A DNA stretch of 64,000 bases from Bryobacteraceae bacterium (GTDB lineage: Bacteria > Acidobacteriota > Terriglobia > Bryobacterales > Bryobacteraceae). The translations under genes and the position numbers were made by a program. The first letter of the stretch is position 1. Each line of letters starts with the position of its first letter. Of the stretch, positions 43,525 to 50,249 are shown piece after piece. The stretch is taken from the NCBI GenBank assembly GCA_025980665.1, contig JAICXC010000003.1:1-64000 (forward strand), in the 5' to 3' direction. The notes under the pieces are model-generated. The model ran no database searches. It was given only the letters and a program-made list of their open reading frames with translations, and had not been told where the DNA came from.

Positions 43525-44523
43525 TTAGATCTGTGCTGCATTCAGGATTTCCGTGATCAGCGCGTCGTAGTCCACACCAGCACTCTGCGCAGCCTGGGCG
43601 AAATCCTCATCCTGCGCCAAGGACGGGTTGGGATTCGCCTCGATCACGAATACGTCGCCTTGAGGAGTCAGACGTACGTCGACGCGTCCGAATCCGTGGA
43701 TCTTGAGTACGCGATAAACCTTGCGCGCCAGTTGCTTCAAGTGGTCTTCGACGCCCGCGGGCAGTTCCTTGGCGGGACCGTTTTTGATACCCCACTTTTC
43801 GCGATATTTCTCGTTCCACTTTGCATGGGAGGTGGCGAACTTCGGTACATCATCGGGAACCTGCTCGAAAAAGATTTCGCGCGGCGGGAAGACCGTCAGT
43901 CGGCGGTTCCCCAGAACGCTTAGATACAGTTCCCTGCCCTCGATATACTCCTCGATCAGCACATCGCATTCAAACTTCTGATGGATGTAGCGCACGCGCT
44001 CCATGGCTTCCTCGGCCGTGCGAACGAAAGAAGCCTTCGCGATCCCATCGGAGGACTCTTCGCCCACCGGCTTAACGAAGGCCGGATACTTGAAGCGCTG
44101 CAACCCTCGCACGGGACGGGCCTGATGCGAGACTACGAACCGCGGCAGCCGCACGCGATGATAGGCCAGCACCTTCTTCGCGAGCGCTTTGTCCTTGCAG
44201 AGCAGCAACCCCTCGGGCCCGGCCCCGGTATAGCGGACCTTCATTAGTTCCAGCAGCGCGGGAATATTGGGCTCATGCGACCGGTCATGATGGAAGGATT
44301 CCGTCAGGTTGAAGACGATATCCGGCGCGCACGCCTTCAGCTTCTCGACGATGGTGGTGACGTTATCGAATACCGCCAGCGTTTCGACTTGATGCCCCAA
44401 ACGCTGGAGACTATCGAGCACGCTCGCTTCGGTGGGCTTTTGATATTCCCGGAGCGACTCGGGAGTAAACTTTTCTTCCGGGTCGGCTCGCTGGGCGATA
44501 TCGAACAGAACCAGAATCTTCAT
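43525..44523 (-). CDS. ATP-grasp ligase, D-alanine-D-alanine ligase-like
   Basis: The 332-aa protein has the Ddl/ATP-grasp layout: an N-terminal Rossmann-like domain ('VFNLTESFHHDRSHE', about residues 70-84), a central ATP-binding 'YPAFVKPVGEESSDGI', 'VLIEEYIEGRELYLSVLG', and the magnesium/ATP site 'FVIEANPNPSLAQDEDF'. It lacks the closest Ddl substrate motifs, so the ligated substrates may be other amino acids or peptides. It follows the zinc peptidase gene by two bases, forming a two-gene operon. Confidence 0.85.
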   Translation of the reverse strand: MKILVLFDIAQRADPEEKFTPESLREYQKPTEASVLDSLQRLGHQVETLAVFDNVTTIVEKLKACAPDIVFNLTESFHHDRSHEPNIPALLELMKVRYTGAGPEGLLLCKDKALAKKVLAYHRVRLPRFVVSHQARPVRGLQRFKYPAFVKPVGEESSDGIAKASFVRTAEEAMERVRYIHQKFECDVLIEEYIEGRELYLSVLGNRRLTVFPPREIFFEQVPDDVPKFATSHAKWNEKYREKWGIKNGPAKELPAGVEDHLKQLARKVYRVLKIHGFGRVDVRLTPQGDVFVIEANPNPSLAQDEDFAQAAQSAGVDYDALITEILNAAQI

Positions 44524-44525
44524 GA

Positions 44526-45551
44526 CTACACAGACCTCTTGAATCTGCCAGTGTACAAATGATTGGTCACCAGTGTCGCCAGATAAGCCGCCAATTCAAA
44601 CTGCAACCGAACCGGATCGCGCGGCGCGACCAGCTTCAATTCCTGGCAGCGCTGGATCAGCCGCCGAACCAGCATGCTCACGGTGTATTTTCGCTGCCCG
44701 GTCCATTGCACGATGGACGCGATCAGGGCAGCGCGATGCTTGCGCATCATTTTTGCCGCGCTCTCTCCGCCGGGTTCTCCGTTGCTGAAGATAGCGCGCA
44801 GGTCAGCATCATAGAAATCCGGAAAATCTTCGGCGTACATCTTGCGCCGGCTAGCGTAGTACTTCGCTAGCGTGCTGCGGAGCTTACTCGCCTCGTAGGA
44901 GCGGCGGCCTTTGGCGACAACCGGTTTCGTGCCGGCGACCTCCTGCATCACCTTATGGATGTATTCCAGCTTCTCAAGCGACTTCCACCCGCGATATTTC
45001 TGCCGCCACTCTTCCGGCGGACTGCCCAGCCAGACCGCGAACGTCTCCGAAAAGTCCTCTTCGGGATGAGCCTGCGCATACCAGTTAGGCAGATGCTGCA
45101 CAAAGCTCTTGCTATAGGGCCGCGGAGTGTATGTTTCCGGAGTATACTCGGTCTCCGGACTGCCGAAGACATCCTGCCAGTCCTTTCGCTCGGAGAGCTT
45201 ATAAGCATGGTCCACGGCGTGGCCGCATTCATGCCGAAGGAGCATTTGGCACCACTCTGGGGTGCCTCCTTCCACTTCCATCATGAGATGCATCTCGAGG
45301 GTCTTGAGACGAGGATGGGCCAGATAAAATGGGATCGCGATGGCCGGCACGCCCGCGGGAGAGAACCACTCGTCGCCGAGGTAACAATCGGGACGAAGGG
45401 TCACGCCGCGCGCAGCCAGATCGTCGAATAGCTGGTTGACGCGCGGTTCGAGCTCGCTACCCTGCAGGCGGACGCCTAAATCGCAGATCCGCAACGCGAG
45501 CATTTCCTCGTCCTTCAGCGAAACCCATGCGGGTTCCGCGCTGGTCTCCAT
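44526..45551 (-). CDS. Putative cytoplasmic zinc metallopeptidase
   Basis: The 341-aa protein has the zincin motif HECGH (107-111) and a later EDFSETFAVWLG helix whose glutamate is a good third zinc ligand. No signal peptide is present, so it is probably cytoplasmic. The C-terminal third is basic and helical. Immediate linkage to an ATP-grasp ligase suggests that one enzyme makes and the other cleaves, or trims, the same peptide. The exact family is uncertain; it matches the loose group of putative zinc-binding metallopeptidases. Confidence 0.75.
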   Translation of the reverse strand: METSAEPAWVSLKDEEMLALRICDLGVRLQGSELEPRVNQLFDDLAARGVTLRPDCYLGDEWFSPAGVPAIAIPFYLAHPRLKTLEMHLMMEVEGGTPEWCQMLLRHECGHAVDHAYKLSERKDWQDVFGSPETEYTPETYTPRPYSKSFVQHLPNWYAQAHPEEDFSETFAVWLGSPPEEWRQKYRGWKSLEKLEYIHKVMQEVAGTKPVVAKGRRSYEASKLRSTLAKYYASRRKMYAEDFPDFYDADLRAIFSNGEPGGESAAKMMRKHRAALIASIVQWTGQRKYTVSMLVRRLIQRCQELKLVAPRDPVRLQFELAAYLATLVTNHLYTGRFKRSV

Positions 45552-45556
45552 GATTT

Positions 45557-45562
45557 ATCCTA
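45557..45562 (-). promoter_or_regulatory. -10-like box TAGGAT before the zinc peptidase gene
   Basis: TAGGAT on the minus strand ends five bases before the ATG at 45551. No Shine-Dalgarno is present. The divergent DUF2071 gene starts at 45574, only 22 bases away. Confidence 0.35.
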
Positions 45563-45573
45563 ACGCGTAGAGT

Positions 45574-46272
45574 ATGGCAGATAACAATCGATTTCTCACC
45601 GCAGAGTGGAATAACTTGGTCATGCTCAATTACGCGGTGGACCCTTCGCTGCTGGAACCATTCGTTCCCGAGGGAACGGAGCTCGATGCATTCGAAGGAA
45701 AAACGTACCTTAGTCTGGTTGGTTTCGAGTTCAACCGCACGCGCGTGCTCGGATTCGCCGTGCCTTTCCATCAGAACTTCGAGGAGGTGAATCTTCGGTT
45801 CTATGTTCGGCGCGGGTCACAGCGCGGTGTAGTATTCATACGGGAACTCGTGCCCCGATATGCAGTGGCTATGATCGCGCGATTTGCCTTTAACGAAAAC
45901 TATACGTGCGTCCCTATGTCGCATCGAATTGAAGCTGGGAACGCTGAATACACGTGGACGCTGGGATCAGAACGGTGCGTGATGAGCATCGAAACTGACG
46001 GAGAATGCTTCGTTCCAGCGGAGGGTTCTCTCAGTCAGTTCATCACCGAACATTATTGGGGCTACACGGCGCGGAGGGGTGGCGGCCGTCTCGAATACGA
46101 AGTGCAGCATCCGCCATGGTCTGTGTGGAATGCGAAGCGGGCTGGTTTCTCGGGGAACGTGGATGGGCTCTATGGGGCCGAGATCGCGCAAATCCTGAGG
46201 CGTGAACCGGATTCCGCTTTTTTAGCCGAGGGATCTCCGGTAACTGTCTTCAGAAGCGCTAGAATCGGCTGA
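45574..46272 (+). CDS. DUF2071 (YqjF-like) family protein
   Basis: The 232-aa protein matches DUF2071: it begins with 'FLTAEWNNLVMLNYAVDPSLL', then 'GKTYLSLVGFEFNRTRVLG', 'NLRFYVRRGSQRGVVFIREL' and 'HPPWSVWNA' near the C-terminus. The family is structurally like acetoacetate decarboxylase, but its role is unknown. It is a single gene divergent from the peptidase/ligase pair. Confidence 0.88.
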   Translation: MADNNRFLTAEWNNLVMLNYAVDPSLLEPFVPEGTELDAFEGKTYLSLVGFEFNRTRVLGFAVPFHQNFEEVNLRFYVRRGSQRGVVFIRELVPRYAVAMIARFAFNENYTCVPMSHRIEAGNAEYTWTLGSERCVMSIETDGECFVPAEGSLSQFITEHYWGYTARRGGGRLEYEVQHPPWSVWNAKRAGFSGNVDGLYGAEIAQILRREPDSAFLAEGSPVTVFRSARIG

Positions 46273-46293
46273 TGAATCGCCCCTCAAGCTTGA

Positions 46294-46710
46294 CTACTTG
46301 TCCGGTTCCGAAAAGTAGTTATCGATATACAATGATGCTCCGAATTCGCCAAGGCGGCTTAATAAGCCTGGGGATAACTGCGGCCCACCGTCAAAGCTCG
46401 TTTGGAAGTTACCACACCACCAGATAAGCTCCGCATTCGCAGCATATTTCGCAATCGCCTCTCTTAGAGGCCATAGGCTGCCCAACACATAGGCAAGACC
46501 TTCCTCAAGGGAGGTCCATTCAGTTTTCACGGCGCTCTCGTCGTCGGTGCCGTTAAATGCCCACATGCCGGTGAAATGCTCCTTACCGCCGAATCTTGGG
46601 GCACCGTGAATTCGCGTTTGGGAGGGTTGAAGGCCCAGTTCTCTGGTGATTATCGTTGGATCGAGCGTTTCGCTGAAAATCCTAAACTCGACCGTGTACT
46701 GGTGGCCCAC
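46294..46710 (-). CDS. DUF4279 domain protein
   Basis: The 138-aa protein has the DUF4279 pattern: 'EFRIFSETLDPTIITRELG' near the N-terminus, 'WTSLEEGLAYVLGSLWPL' in the middle and 'GLLSRLGEFGASLYIDNYF' at the end. Members often occur as small immunity-like or accessory proteins; function is unknown. The start is GTG at 46710, eight bases after the stop of the caspase gene on the same strand, so it is probably the last gene of that operon. Confidence 0.8.
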   Translation of the reverse strand: MGHQYTVEFRIFSETLDPTIITRELGLQPSQTRIHGAPRFGGKEHFTGMWAFNGTDDESAVKTEWTSLEEGLAYVLGSLWPLREAIAKYAANAELIWWCGNFQTSFDGGPQLSPGLLSRLGEFGASLYIDNYFSEPDK

Positions 46711-46718
46711 AACGCGAC

Positions 46719-48800
46719 CTACCTAGCCGCCAACAGAGGCTCAATGCTTTTCAGATTCGCCCGTGCGTACTGCGCCTCTTCGATATCGCCATTCAAGTCG
46801 AGCATCGCGCGAAAGTGTTTGGCTGCGGCGGATAGCGTCTCTAGGCTTCCGCTGGCCTGAGCTAACCGCGCGTAGCATAGGGCCAGGGCGTAGTGCGCGT
46901 AAGGATCGTTCGGGTCATATGCCAGCGACTTCTGACAATACCCGACCGCCAGCTCGAAATGCGCCTGATTGCGCTCCGAATCGCATAATCCGAAATATGC
47001 GAGACTCCGCAGGTCGCGCCAGGTATCGGTCTGCGTGGCGCGCTTCTTCTTACCGAGCCCCACCAGGAACCCGACCACGTAGTAATTCATCTGACCGGCA
47101 AGCTTGCTGTCGAAATCGCTCAACTTCAGATACTGAATGTATTCGCCGGATGCATCCGGATAGTTTCCACTCAGACGAAGACTCTCGGCCAGCCACATGT
47201 GCGGTTCCGCAACCGTGGGCGCGATCTTGATGGCCGCACGGGCGGAATCAGTCGACTGCGGATAAAGCTGCTTCATCCGGTATGCCTGGGCTTGCATATA
47301 TAAAGCAGATGCGTTCGTTTTCTCACGTTGCGTGACGATGTTCAACTGTCGAATCGCCTCATCCACGCCGCCGATATCGAGCAGCATTCCGGCGAGGCTC
47401 GTGCGCGCTTCCATGTAATCCGGATCGATTGCGATTGCCTTGCGAAACGCTGCCTCGGAGTTCTTTTCATCGAATAACGAATTGTAAGCGCGGCCCAGAT
47501 ATAGTGCAGCCTGACTGTAGGTCCCGTCGAGCTGCAGAGCTTTCTCGAAGCGTGCGACGGCCTTCTTATAGTTATCGGCGCCGCCCTTGTTGTAGAGCCT
47601 CAAACCTTCGTCCAGCTCATCAACGGCCGCCTTATTCCGGCGGCGCACGATCAGAATCTTGAGCGATACCGTGGAATCGCGGCCAGGGTAAACCATCTCA
47701 TCGCGAGGGCCGTCCGGTTCATATCCCTGCTTGACGCCTTGTATCGTGTGATTGCCCGGCTTCAAACCCGGCAAGCGCAGCGGAGAGCTTTTATTGATAA
47801 CCCCCTGCGACACCCCATCGACGAACAGCTCGACACCGTCCATATTGGTCTCGAAAACCAGCGTGCCGTTCTTGGGCGGAGGAGCGTTCGACGACCGCAG
47901 GCTGGCAGGGATGTACGACAAGCCCATCTTCGGATCGAAGCTGCCTCGATCGCTGGTGGGATTCTGCATGCCCTTCGTGGCTTCACGAACATTGCGGCGA
48001 GTATAATCGGCCAGCTCATCCGCGGTAACGATGCCGTCGCCGTCTTCGTCGGCCTCGCCTTCCAGGCCCTTGACGACGTAATACGTAAAGATGCCATGCC
48101 CACCGCCCCAATCCTTGCTTTCGAAGGAACGCTCGCGGTCGCGGCTGGCAGTGAGCGAAAACATGGAACGCGAAAGATCCAAGAGACTCCGGTTGTACGC
48201 AACGGCGTCAGCGTCCGGAGTAATGGCCCCGCTGTGGCAGGAATCGGTCACCAGGACTTTCCATTTGGCCTTAATCTTCGATCCGGCTACGTTGCCGAGT
48301 GTGTCCATGGGATAGCCGGTACCGGGGATGTTCTTCGGATCCAAATCGTAAGGAGCCAGATACGCCCGCCCGTCTTGGAGGAAGCCATGACCGGCGAAAT
48401 ACACAAATACCCGGTCGTCTTCTTTGGCAACCGATGGCAGCCAGCTCTCCAACTCCATTTTGAGGTTCGCCAGCGTGGCTTTGGCGCCGGTCAGGCGATG
48501 CACGTTCTCGGCGCGGAAGTTGCCGCCTTCCGGGCTGATCAAGACCGAGTAAATGGCATCGGCATCGCGTTCCGAATAATCCAGTTGCGCGTTCGCGGGA
48601 AGATTTTTGTAGCCTGCGACTCCGACGATCAGGGCATAGCCGCGCGGAATCGTAGCCGAGGTGACCGCCGGGCGATCCTCTTCATACCTCAGATCTCGTG
48701 ACTTAGATTCTTGCGACTTGGACTGCTGCGCAGATTTGGTTTGCGCGGTGGCTGCCAGCGCAACCAAGAGAAAACTAGCGGTGCGCCAGGCGAAGCTCAT
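46719..48800 (-). CDS. Caspase-like peptidase with EF-hand, PEGA and TPR domains
   Basis: The 693-aa protein has a signal peptide (about residues 1-19), a peptidase C14/metacaspase domain (about 50-285) with catalytic H138 in YFAGHG and C188 in TDSCHSG, and within it a 12-residue EF-hand-type loop (251-262, D-x-D-x-D-G...E). A PEGA domain follows (about 310-375, 'ELFVDGVSQG'), then tetratricopeptide repeats to the C-terminus (about 395-690). It is exported and probably a calcium-responsive orthocaspase with a protein-binding tail. It overlaps the DUF4384 gene upstream by 26 bases. Confidence 0.9.
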   Translation of the reverse strand: MSFAWRTASFLLVALAATAQTKSAQQSKSQESKSRDLRYEEDRPAVTSATIPRGYALIVGVAGYKNLPANAQLDYSERDADAIYSVLISPEGGNFRAENVHRLTGAKATLANLKMELESWLPSVAKEDDRVFVYFAGHGFLQDGRAYLAPYDLDPKNIPGTGYPMDTLGNVAGSKIKAKWKVLVTDSCHSGAITPDADAVAYNRSLLDLSRSMFSLTASRDRERSFESKDWGGGHGIFTYYVVKGLEGEADEDGDGIVTADELADYTRRNVREATKGMQNPTSDRGSFDPKMGLSYIPASLRSSNAPPPKNGTLVFETNMDGVELFVDGVSQGVINKSSPLRLPGLKPGNHTIQGVKQGYEPDGPRDEMVYPGRDSTVSLKILIVRRRNKAAVDELDEGLRLYNKGGADNYKKAVARFEKALQLDGTYSQAALYLGRAYNSLFDEKNSEAAFRKAIAIDPDYMEARTSLAGMLLDIGGVDEAIRQLNIVTQREKTNASALYMQAQAYRMKQLYPQSTDSARAAIKIAPTVAEPHMWLAESLRLSGNYPDASGEYIQYLKLSDFDSKLAGQMNYYVVGFLVGLGKKKRATQTDTWRDLRSLAYFGLCDSERNQAHFELAVGYCQKSLAYDPNDPYAHYALALCYARLAQASGSLETLSAAAKHFRAMLDLNGDIEEAQYARANLKSIEPLLAAR

Positions 48801-49440
48801 AAATCACCGGTCCGGTTAACGGCTGTTTCGAGGAGAGCACGCTGCCACCCTTTTCTTCGAGAAAGAGCAGTTCGCGCGGTGTGGGACCCGCCACGCCGCT
48901 TAAATTCGAAGGTAGCTTCTCTCCTGGTTCCACGGGCCGCATTCCTGCGGAATTGTCGATGCACTCACCGCGGGCCTTGAAGACTTGATCATCGCACCTG
49001 GGGTGTATAGACGACGGCAGATTCGCGTCGTGCGGCGGAGGCGGAGGCAAATGCTGATAGCCGGCCGGCATCTCCATCGGGCTCACCAGCCAATATATAA
49101 CGTCCTGACCGGCAGGGCCGGCAATACGGAACCATCCCTGGGTGGCCGGAACCATGTACTCCTTGCCCGCTTCGATCCGATTGTCGCTACCGGTGTCGTT
49201 GCGGGGAAACAGCAGTTCGTAGGTATCCGCGGTTCCATGATTCATCACGTACAGAAAACCCGAGAAATTGGTAGTCAGGCGAAAACGTAGCCGCTCATTG
49301 GGCCCGAATACAGTAGCCGGATTCATCGCGCGCCAGCCGGAGCCTTCTTCGCGCTCTACGATCACGCGAACGCGCTGCGGGTCGGCAGCGGAACCGGTGG
49401 CGGCTAATACGAGCAGAACGAAACTGATTGCCCTGATCAC
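48775..49440 (-). CDS. Secreted DUF4384 protein
   Basis: The 221-aa protein has a signal peptide and a DUF4384 domain: 'FGPNERLRFRLTTNFSGFLYVMNHG', 'YELLFPRND' and 'AGKEYMVPATQGWFRI'. A proline-rich linker with PPPPPPHD follows. DUF4384 domains commonly accompany exported caspase-like proteins, and may be beta-sandwich binding modules; function is inferred. It overlaps both its neighbours (49437-49440 and 48775-48800). Confidence 0.8.
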   Translation of the reverse strand: MIRAISFVLLVLAATGSAADPQRVRVIVEREEGSGWRAMNPATVFGPNERLRFRLTTNFSGFLYVMNHGTADTYELLFPRNDTGSDNRIEAGKEYMVPATQGWFRIAGPAGQDVIYWLVSPMEMPAGYQHLPPPPPHDANLPSSIHPRCDDQVFKARGECIDNSAGMRPVEPGEKLPSNLSGVAGPTPRELLFLEEKGGSVLSSKQPLTGPVIYELRLAHR

Positions 49441-50249
49441 TTGTGTTTTAAGGCAATATCCACAACCAGGCGCGCATCAGGGGCGCTGCTGGGATTGACG
49501 ACGTAGGCTGCGTTCTCGGTAGAGTCCACTTTTTCGAATACCAGATCGCGCGAGGCCACTTGAGCCCTCAGCTTCGACACGATATCGTCGCCCAGCGACG
49601 CCTCCGCAACCAACGACCGGCTTCCGTCTTTCGTAACAGTCCCGCCCATCGAGTAGATCAACTTGTCGAGATCCGGCTCCGGTTGTCGCGTAAGTACGAT
49701 GAATAGCTTCTCATTGCCGGCCTGCTCATCGAACACGAACTGTCCGCGTTCGCCGGAGGGAATCTGGAGGGATTCGCCCTTGTGGACCAGATTGCTTCCC
49801 CCCGCGACTTCTGCCGACGGGAACATAAGTTTCCAAGTGCCGCTCGATCCGCGCATCACCACATAGAGATACCCGGATGTGTTTGCGTCCACTTTCAGGC
49901 GTATGCGATCGCCGGAGCGAAAACTCGTATCGGAATCGACTTCATTGTATTGGCCGCCTTCGCCGCGCTTCAGAACGGCGTAACGCAATCCCAGCGGCAC
50001 CGAGGCCGTCAGCGTGTGCGCGTTCCCCGCTTTAGTTGCGGCTTTAGCCGTGCTGGATTTCGTGGCCACAGCCTTGGTCACAGCCTTAGCTTCCGGCTCC
50101 TTTACAGCAGGCGCAGGAGTACTGGGAGCCGGCTTGGACGTGTCGGGTGGAGGCGTGTAAAACAACTCGCGCGCTTTAAGTGTCGGCTGCTGGGCTTGAA
50201 GTGATCCCATGGGGACCGCCAATATCGCCAGGGCTAATAGGTGTTTCAT
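49437..50249 (-). CDS. Secreted DUF4384 protein (first gene of caspase operon)
   Basis: The start at MKHLLALAILAVPMGSLQAQ is chosen: it gives a signal peptide and has GAGGCGGG seven or so bases upstream. The 270-aa product has an Ala/Lys/Pro-rich linker (residues 35-80) and then a DUF4384 domain ('FRSGDRIRLKVDANTSGYLYVVMRG', 'KLMFPSAEVAGG', 'GQFVFDEQAGNEKLFIVL'). It is a paralogue of the next gene, which it overlaps by ATGA. The pair may act as two components of the caspase system. Confidence 0.8.
   Translation of the reverse strand: MKHLLALAILAVPMGSLQAQQPTLKARELFYTPPPDTSKPAPSTPAPAVKEPEAKAVTKAVATKSSTAKAATKAGNAHTLTASVPLGLRYAVLKRGEGGQYNEVDSDTSFRSGDRIRLKVDANTSGYLYVVMRGSSGTWKLMFPSAEVAGGSNLVHKGESLQIPSGERGQFVFDEQAGNEKLFIVLTRQPEPDLDKLIYSMGGTVTKDGSRSLVAEASLGDDIVSKLRAQVASRDLVFEKVDSTENAAYVVNPSSAPDARLVVDIALKHK

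Follow-up and report, generated by a model that had tools for sequence, protein, structure and literature searches.

Most ideas about the role of bacterial caspases assume a cytoplasmic death protease. The locus described here raises the question of what a caspase-type protease does when it is encoded behind two DUF4384 proteins and all three proteins begin with signal-peptide-like N-termini. The locus lies in a window of 64,000 nucleotides, the whole stretch of DNA that was analysed, from a Bryobacteraceae bacterium. In the draft genome of this organism (5.04 Mb, 89% complete), the locus holds the sole Peptidase_C14 gene and the sole two DUF4384 genes. The nearest named relatives are Bryobacterales and Bryobacteraceae (Acidobacteriota) from soil and groundwater metagenomes.

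Genes of the locus

Four open reading frames, all on the minus strand, were confirmed by an ORF check of the window. They are listed here together with the neighbouring DUF2071 gene:

49437..50249, minus strand: DUF4384a; ATG start, 270 aa, Pfam PF14326 (1.4e-14), exported as judged by eye from the N-terminus
48775..49440, minus strand: DUF4384b, a paralogue of DUF4384a; GTG start, 221 aa, PF14326 (2.5e-12), exported by the same judgement
46719..48800, minus strand: caspase (Peptidase_C14)-PEGA-TPR protein; ATG start, 693 aa, likewise exported by eye
46294..46710, minus strand: DUF4279 gene; GTG start; outside the system, in a variable slot that follows the caspase stop
45574..46272, plus strand: DUF2071 gene, which shares this variable slot with DUF4279

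The first-pass annotation had described four leftward genes that overlap or nearly touch, and the coordinates, strand and spacing all hold: the DUF4384b start overlaps the DUF4384a stop by 4 nt, the caspase start overlaps the end of DUF4384b by 26 nt, and a gap of 8 nt separates the caspase from DUF4279. The two DUF4384 matches exceed the curated Pfam cut-offs, as do those to Peptidase_C14 (2.8e-15), TPR (2e-17) and DUF4279 (4.8e-13). Both DUF4384 proteins belong to that family (47.1 and 54.4 bits against a gathering score of 27), and the DUF4279 protein belongs to PF14106 (49.8 bits against 25). Export of the first three proteins is read by eye from their N-termini; the start codons of many orthologues were picked by a hydrophobicity rule, which biases statements about export in relatives. 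The DUF4279 protein shows no such N-terminus. Two putatively secreted DUF4384 proteins and a DUF4279 protein without an obvious signal peptide, as first described, are therefore retained. A scan for promoters and terminators gave matches at chance level.

Conservation of the three-gene unit

A search with the C-terminal 426 residues of the caspase finds a close orthologue (E < 1e-100) in 70 of 150 genomes of Bryobacterales and a clear but more distant one in five more. DUF4384a and DUF4384b lie directly upstream of the caspase, in the same order, at 43 of the 48 orthologous loci that were fetched; the other five have a single DUF4384 gene (two loci), a recognisable DUF4384b only (one) or a kinase-DUF4384-like gene (two). 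The DUF4384-DUF4384-caspase order is seen again in the named genome collection. Across the 150 genomes, caspase and DUF4384 genes are both present in 74 and both missing from 73, with three discordant drafts; the corresponding Fisher p-value (5e-39) is inflated by shared ancestry, the genomes being related and not independent. DUF4384a, DUF4384b and the exported caspase are one conserved, co-inherited unit. Among 16 genomes of the window's genus in the order sample, seven have the unit and nine are without it.

No conserved gene follows the caspase: of 54 loci, 35 continue with a codirectional gene and 19 with an oppositely oriented one, and the products are unrelated. In the nearest relatives the conserved flank of the unit consists of housekeeping-like genes. 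At 43525-45551 of the window, adjacent genes encode an ATP-grasp protein resembling D-Ala-D-Ala ligases and a putative zinc metallopeptidase; both are 95-97% identical in the two nearest relatives. At 21 of 55 loci (L016, L018, L028 and 18 others), a large protein, itself related to a protein with Ig-like (He_PIG) repeats, is encoded beside the unit, 1.5-3.6 kb from the caspase and usually divergent; it is absent in the window's genus. It is often accompanied by genes for two smaller proteins, an Ig-like membrane protein (195 aa) and an exported one (330 aa).

The variable slot after the caspase

DNA identity to the two nearest relatives is continuous (81-86%) as far as the caspase stop codon, and homology restarts some 16-18 nt ahead of the metallopeptidase-like gene. 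Between these exactly conserved flanks, the window carries the DUF4279 and DUF2071 genes; in one relative the place is taken by a 191-aa exported protein with a DFDGDG repeat-like sequence, in the other by a 198-aa membrane protein. The slot spans 45557-46718 in the window, L008:8282-8868, and in L009 the interval between the caspase stop and the metallopeptidase-like gene. DUF4279 is present in 4 of 23 congeneric genomes and lies near the caspase in the window genome only; it is absent from both nearest relatives and from every other caspase locus examined. The four-gene order that the first-pass annotation had proposed to look for is thus not found elsewhere, and the three-gene order is conserved instead. 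The third-position G+C of DUF4279 (0.597) equals that of DUF2071 (0.597), against 0.66-0.69 in the triad and 0.72-0.75 in the flanking housekeeping genes. Judged by these patterns, DUF4279 is a recent arrival, unrelated to the three-gene unit.

DUF4279 proteins are predicted immunity proteins in a survey of type VI secretion (PMC13304343), and an orphan immunity-like gene is therefore the simplest label and probably the right one. The protein shares the Pfam family and the lack of a signal peptide with these putative immunity proteins of polymorphic toxins; unlike them, it has no adjoining cognate toxin, and Ntox33 was not found in the genome, which is a weak negative. Cotranscription of DUF4279 with the caspase in the window strain is likely, because the gene starts 8 nt past the caspase stop on the same strand.

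The caspase protein

The features of the caspase protein are the following:

48741..48800, minus strand: signal-peptide-like N-terminus, MSFAWRTASFLLVALAATAQ, judged by eye; aligned relatives have similar N-termini
47946..48644, minus strand: caspase domain, residues 53-285 (PF00656)
48564..48566, minus strand: Asp79, invariant, aligned with a metacaspase S1-pocket Asp
48387..48389, minus strand: catalytic His138 (FAGHG), from sequence and alignment
48243..48245, minus strand: Asp186, invariant, two residues ahead of the catalytic Cys, at the S1-pocket Asp of metacaspases and MALT1
48237..48239, minus strand: catalytic Cys188 (DSCHSG), from sequence and alignment
48015..48050, minus strand: EF-hand-like loop, residues 251-262, with no variation at positions 1, 5 and 12 in the Bryobacteraceae set
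47661..47867, minus strand: PEGA-like beta-sandwich, residues 312-380, slightly under the Pfam cut-off
46725..47633, minus strand: TPR array, residues 390-692, from Pfam, model and Foldseek

The match to the Peptidase C14 profile scores 57.1 bits against a cut-off of 21.4. The catalytic pair is intact, as had been claimed: His138 and Cys188 are invariant in 47 relatives with identities as low as 34%. Asp79 and Asp186, also invariant in the 47 relatives, align with the metacaspase S1-pocket aspartates named in PMC4357240, which points to an acidic S1 pocket. In characterised enzymes these aspartates go with cleavage after Arg or Lys (PMC4357240, PMC5756287). Since both are invariant together with the dyad, the caspase is predicted to cut after Arg or Lys. 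Conservation is of the purifying kind, with a mean column identity of 66% in the alignment of 51 orthologues.

The protein had been called a secreted caspase-EF-hand-PEGA-TPR protein. Its caspase and TPR parts stand above the Pfam cut-offs; PEGA (19.8 bits against 20.8) and EF-hand (12.6 against 25.4) fall below theirs, although the EF loop (D-E-D-G-D-G-I-V-T-A-D-E) is canonical, lies in a helix-loop-helix predicted by AlphaFold2 and keeps positions 1, 5 and 12 unchanged across the 51 orthologues. A dependence on Ca2+ through this loop is plausible. The AlphaFold2 model (pLDDT 78) has a beta-sandwich after the caspase domain and then the TPR array; the N-terminal tail is unplaced (pLDDT < 50), and self-inhibition by this tail, as in TbMCA2, is not supported. 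Foldseek matches the model to TPR proteins and to the caspase-Ig module of MALT1 (2.9e-9), which is the best caspase-type match.

The DUF4384 proteins and a shared motif

DUF4384a is built of a signal peptide, an R-E-L motif, a disordered Pro/Ala/Lys linker, a DUF4384 beta-sandwich and a C-terminal element with R-D-L; its AlphaFold2 model has a pLDDT of 78, with domain blocks at 86-96. Comparison with DUF4384b by hhalign gives a probability of 99.6%. No PDB entry matches the DUF4384 fold below 1e-3; just weak matches to Ig-like beta-sandwiches are found, e.g., the Wzt carbohydrate-binding domain. In DUF4384b, Cys149 and Cys160 (PRCDD...ARGECID; 48961-48996) are invariant in 52 relatives; they possibly form a disulfide, which would lend indirect support to export. 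At L049:3021-5498, an open frame of 825 aa has DUF4384 close to its C-terminal end; the long stretch before the domain is either a genuine N-terminal extension or a chance frame upstream of DUF4384a.

A short motif, R-D/E-L, is common to all three proteins of the unit:

50157..50177, minus strand: DUF4384a N-motif KARELFY, residues 25-31; R27 and F30 invariant in 40 relatives
49530..49556, minus strand: DUF4384a C-motif ASRDLVFEK, residues 232-240; R234, D235 and L236 invariant in 40 relatives
48862..48882, minus strand: DUF4384b C-motif TPRELLF, residues 187-193, from alignment
48675..48704, minus strand: caspase N-motif KSRDLRYEED, residues 33-42; R35 and D36 unchanged in both alignments (47 and 51 relatives)

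The caspase copy sits in a hypervariable linker between signal peptide and caspase domain, in which R35-D36 stay constant, and is near-identical to a strand of DUF4384a; the AlphaFold2 model of DUF4384a places a strand (237-240) within the C-motif. An N-terminal copy is present in DUF4384a, at the start of the mature protein, and absent in DUF4384b, and the motif Arg is replaced in some DUF4384b proteins. Per 1000 aa, R-[DE]-L-x-[FY] is found 0.039 times in 372 neighbouring ORFs, compared with 0.88, 5.1 and 2.8 times in the three families. A profile built from the caspase N-motif scores best at the DUF4384a C-motif, in the protein encoded here and in almost every relative. These matches lie at about -40 to -60 from the C-terminus, with a median E of 0.004; among background proteins, 4% attain 0.05. 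A scan in the opposite direction recovers the caspase tail in most cases. Because such counts span related sequences, the independent evidence is the convergence of unrelated positions in adjacent genes on one motif. Residues 21-40 of DUF4384a, which include the N-motif, are ordered in the models (pLDDT 81/75; flanks 48-64). An ordered N-motif in DUF4384a and a caspase tail that is unordered alone are what would be expected, indirectly, if the tail needs a partner.

Kinase-linked relatives outside the order

Outside Bryobacterales, two acidobacteriotal genomes (G263 and G368) encode a protein of 608-611 aa in which a Ser/Thr kinase is joined through a transmembrane segment to a full DUF4384a. 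The gene for this protein overlaps the beginning of the gene for a related exported caspase, which has the tail PRDLILV. The kinase-fused DUF4384 keeps the C-motif (RSRDLIFTK); the N-motif position reads LTAQQLF. Triads of caspase, kinase-DUF4384 and DUF4384 with differently built caspases occur in L176, L181, L182 and L183, and a Ser/Thr kinase is fused to or beside DUF4384 in L171, L172, L176 and L181-L183. A kinase-fused DUF4384-like protein in L042 is without the R-[DE]-L motif, and some caspases of more distant Acidobacteriota adjoin DUF4384 with no RDL motif at all. A DUF4384 gene lies within about 6 kb of the caspase at seven of 15 loci outside the order; the list also contains one congeneric genome, which has no DUF4384. 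The co-occurrence of DUF4384 with kinase domains has been remarked on before (PMC6426788).

In the window no kinase lies within 6 kb of the unit, nor is there one beside it in the nearest relatives. Within the order a kinase is a neighbour at just 15 of 55 loci, in few lineages, and the kinase link therefore rests mainly on the fusions outside the order. Ser/Thr kinases with a C-terminal FGE-sulfatase (formylglycine-generating-like) domain are encoded near the unit in several lineages (L018:10763-12472, L045:2671-4485), upstream of DUF4384a in L043, L045, L046, L051 and L053.

The first-pass annotation had proposed an envelope signalling or programmed-response system. A link with envelope signalling does exist, since in other Acidobacteriota a transmembrane Ser/Thr kinase encoded beside the caspase has DUF4384a as its extracytoplasmic domain. 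A programmed response in the sense of cell death lacks specific support: the unit contains no toxin or pore-former, the conserved flank in the nearest relatives is housekeeping-like, and 9 of 16 congeners lack the unit.

Proposed mechanism and alternatives

The reading favoured here, with confidence just short of even, is a periplasmic Arg/Lys-specific protease docked on DUF4384 sensor or adaptor proteins derived from kinase-linked receptors. The caspase would be a periplasmic cysteine protease that cuts after Arg or Lys, and its flexible tail, RDL(K/R)(Y/F)E, would imitate the RDLVFEK strand of DUF4384a and dock on a DUF4384 protein. The partner would most likely be DUF4384b, because it is without an N-terminal motif copy of its own. 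The DUF4384 proteins would be released ectodomains of what is elsewhere in Acidobacteriota a transmembrane Ser/Thr kinase receptor; they may sense the state of the envelope and keep the caspase in position or under restraint. Substrates may be recruited by the PEGA/TPR part, and Ca2+ at the EF-type loop may tune activity. More tentative, and on the unlikely side, is the specific proposal of strand mimicry, in which the R-D-L tail of an exported, Arg-specific caspase is bound by DUF4384 ectodomains and envelope sensing is thereby coupled to regulated proteolysis. If true, the receptor-protease reading would describe the first caspase signalling pathway outside the bacterial cytoplasm. DUF4384 gains its first functional hypothesis, and the system is small and tractable: a partner, candidate docking or cleavage sites, a predicted specificity and a natural receptor-kinase fusion can all be named.

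The main rival, rather unlikely in our estimate, takes the motifs as cleavage sites. The caspase would cut after its own R35 in activation, after R27 and R234 of DUF4384a and after R189 of DUF4384b; the DUF4384 proteins would be substrates or precursors, and their processing the signal. The predicted Arg/Lys specificity at P1 coincides with the invariant Arg of the caspase and DUF4384a motifs, and both the caspase copy and the N-terminal copy in DUF4384a adjoin flexible linkers. However, the C-motif of DUF4384a leads into a predicted beta-strand, a poor protease site; the residues past the Arg are conserved equally with it, and DUF4384b does not always keep the Arg. That the triad serves general periplasmic quality control seems improbable; in this reading the protease would do housekeeping turnover, and the DUF4384 proteins would act as adaptors resembling chaperones and have no part in signalling. 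TPR and PEGA are common adaptor modules and the unit is under purifying conservation, but it is lost in half of the order and is therefore not housekeeping, and the repeated linkage of DUF4384 and Ser/Thr kinases beside caspases points to regulation.

It is more improbable still that the unit works in the envelope as an altruistic death or anti-phage system. Caspase homologues do occur in bacterial conflict and death systems (PMC8195603, PMC3501461), and the caspase domain has a weak, generic PADLOC 'caspase' match (1.5e-10) and sub-threshold NCBIfam matches of the EACC1 type. Yet Pfam, NCBIfam and PADLOC find no toxin, pore-former, NTPase or effector-associated domain in the unit; the examined neighbourhood holds no defence genes, and the flanks in the nearest relatives are conserved and housekeeping-like. 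An exported enzyme would be oddly placed for meeting phage nucleic acid, and the unit is a co-retained family trait, inherited in half of the order. Hardly credible at all is the earlier idea of a four-gene operon that ends in DUF4279 as the caspase's cytoplasmic regulator or immunity factor. Position, 8 nt downstream on the same strand, and the predicted immunity function of the family (PMC13304343) speak for it, but presence in just 4 of 23 congeners and three different occupants in three close genomes contradict such an operon; absence from the other caspase loci examined and the G+C unlike that of the triad tell the same way, and a cytoplasmic inhibitor could not restrain the enzyme after export.

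Relation to known systems

The docked-protease reading concerns an enzyme that shares with bacterial caspase homologues (orthocaspases or prokaryotic metacaspases, Peptidase C14) the caspase fold, the His/Cys dyad, the acidic S1 pocket and the fusion to protein-interaction repeats (PMC5756287, PMC3501461). It differs from them in being exported, in its PEGA and TPR parts, in an EF-type loop after the catalytic region, and in an obligate exported DUF4384 pair and a conserved RDL tail. MALT1 paracaspase likewise has a caspase domain followed by an Ig-like beta-sandwich and owes its Arg specificity to the corresponding Asp (PMC4357240); in contrast, MALT1 is cytosolic, activated by dimerisation and without TPR, and the relation is structural only. 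Prokaryotic metacaspases of the Xanthomonas type, reported from Solibacter and Koribacter as well, also have a caspase followed by TPR in Acidobacteria, but carry an N-terminal polysaccharide deacetylase domain (PMC3501461), which Pfam does not find here, and the protein is not assigned to this type. Assignment to the EACC1-type conflict systems was rejected too: NCBIfam caspase_w_EACC1 scores 87.4 bits against a cut-off of 140, and Pfam, NCBIfam and PADLOC show no effector-associated or NTPase partner.

The DUF4384 proteins belong to the same Pfam family as the kinase-TM-DUF4384 fusions beside caspases in other Acidobacteriota; in the window, by contrast, there are two of them, both soluble and exported, and no kinase in the vicinity. 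A description of the three-gene unit was not found in the literature searched, which leaves out most subscription journals. DUF4384 has been noted as a fusion to some orthocaspases and pseudo-orthocaspases (PMC6426788, PMC7475262), and the unit is a variant of the known bacterial caspase cassettes in a new arrangement.
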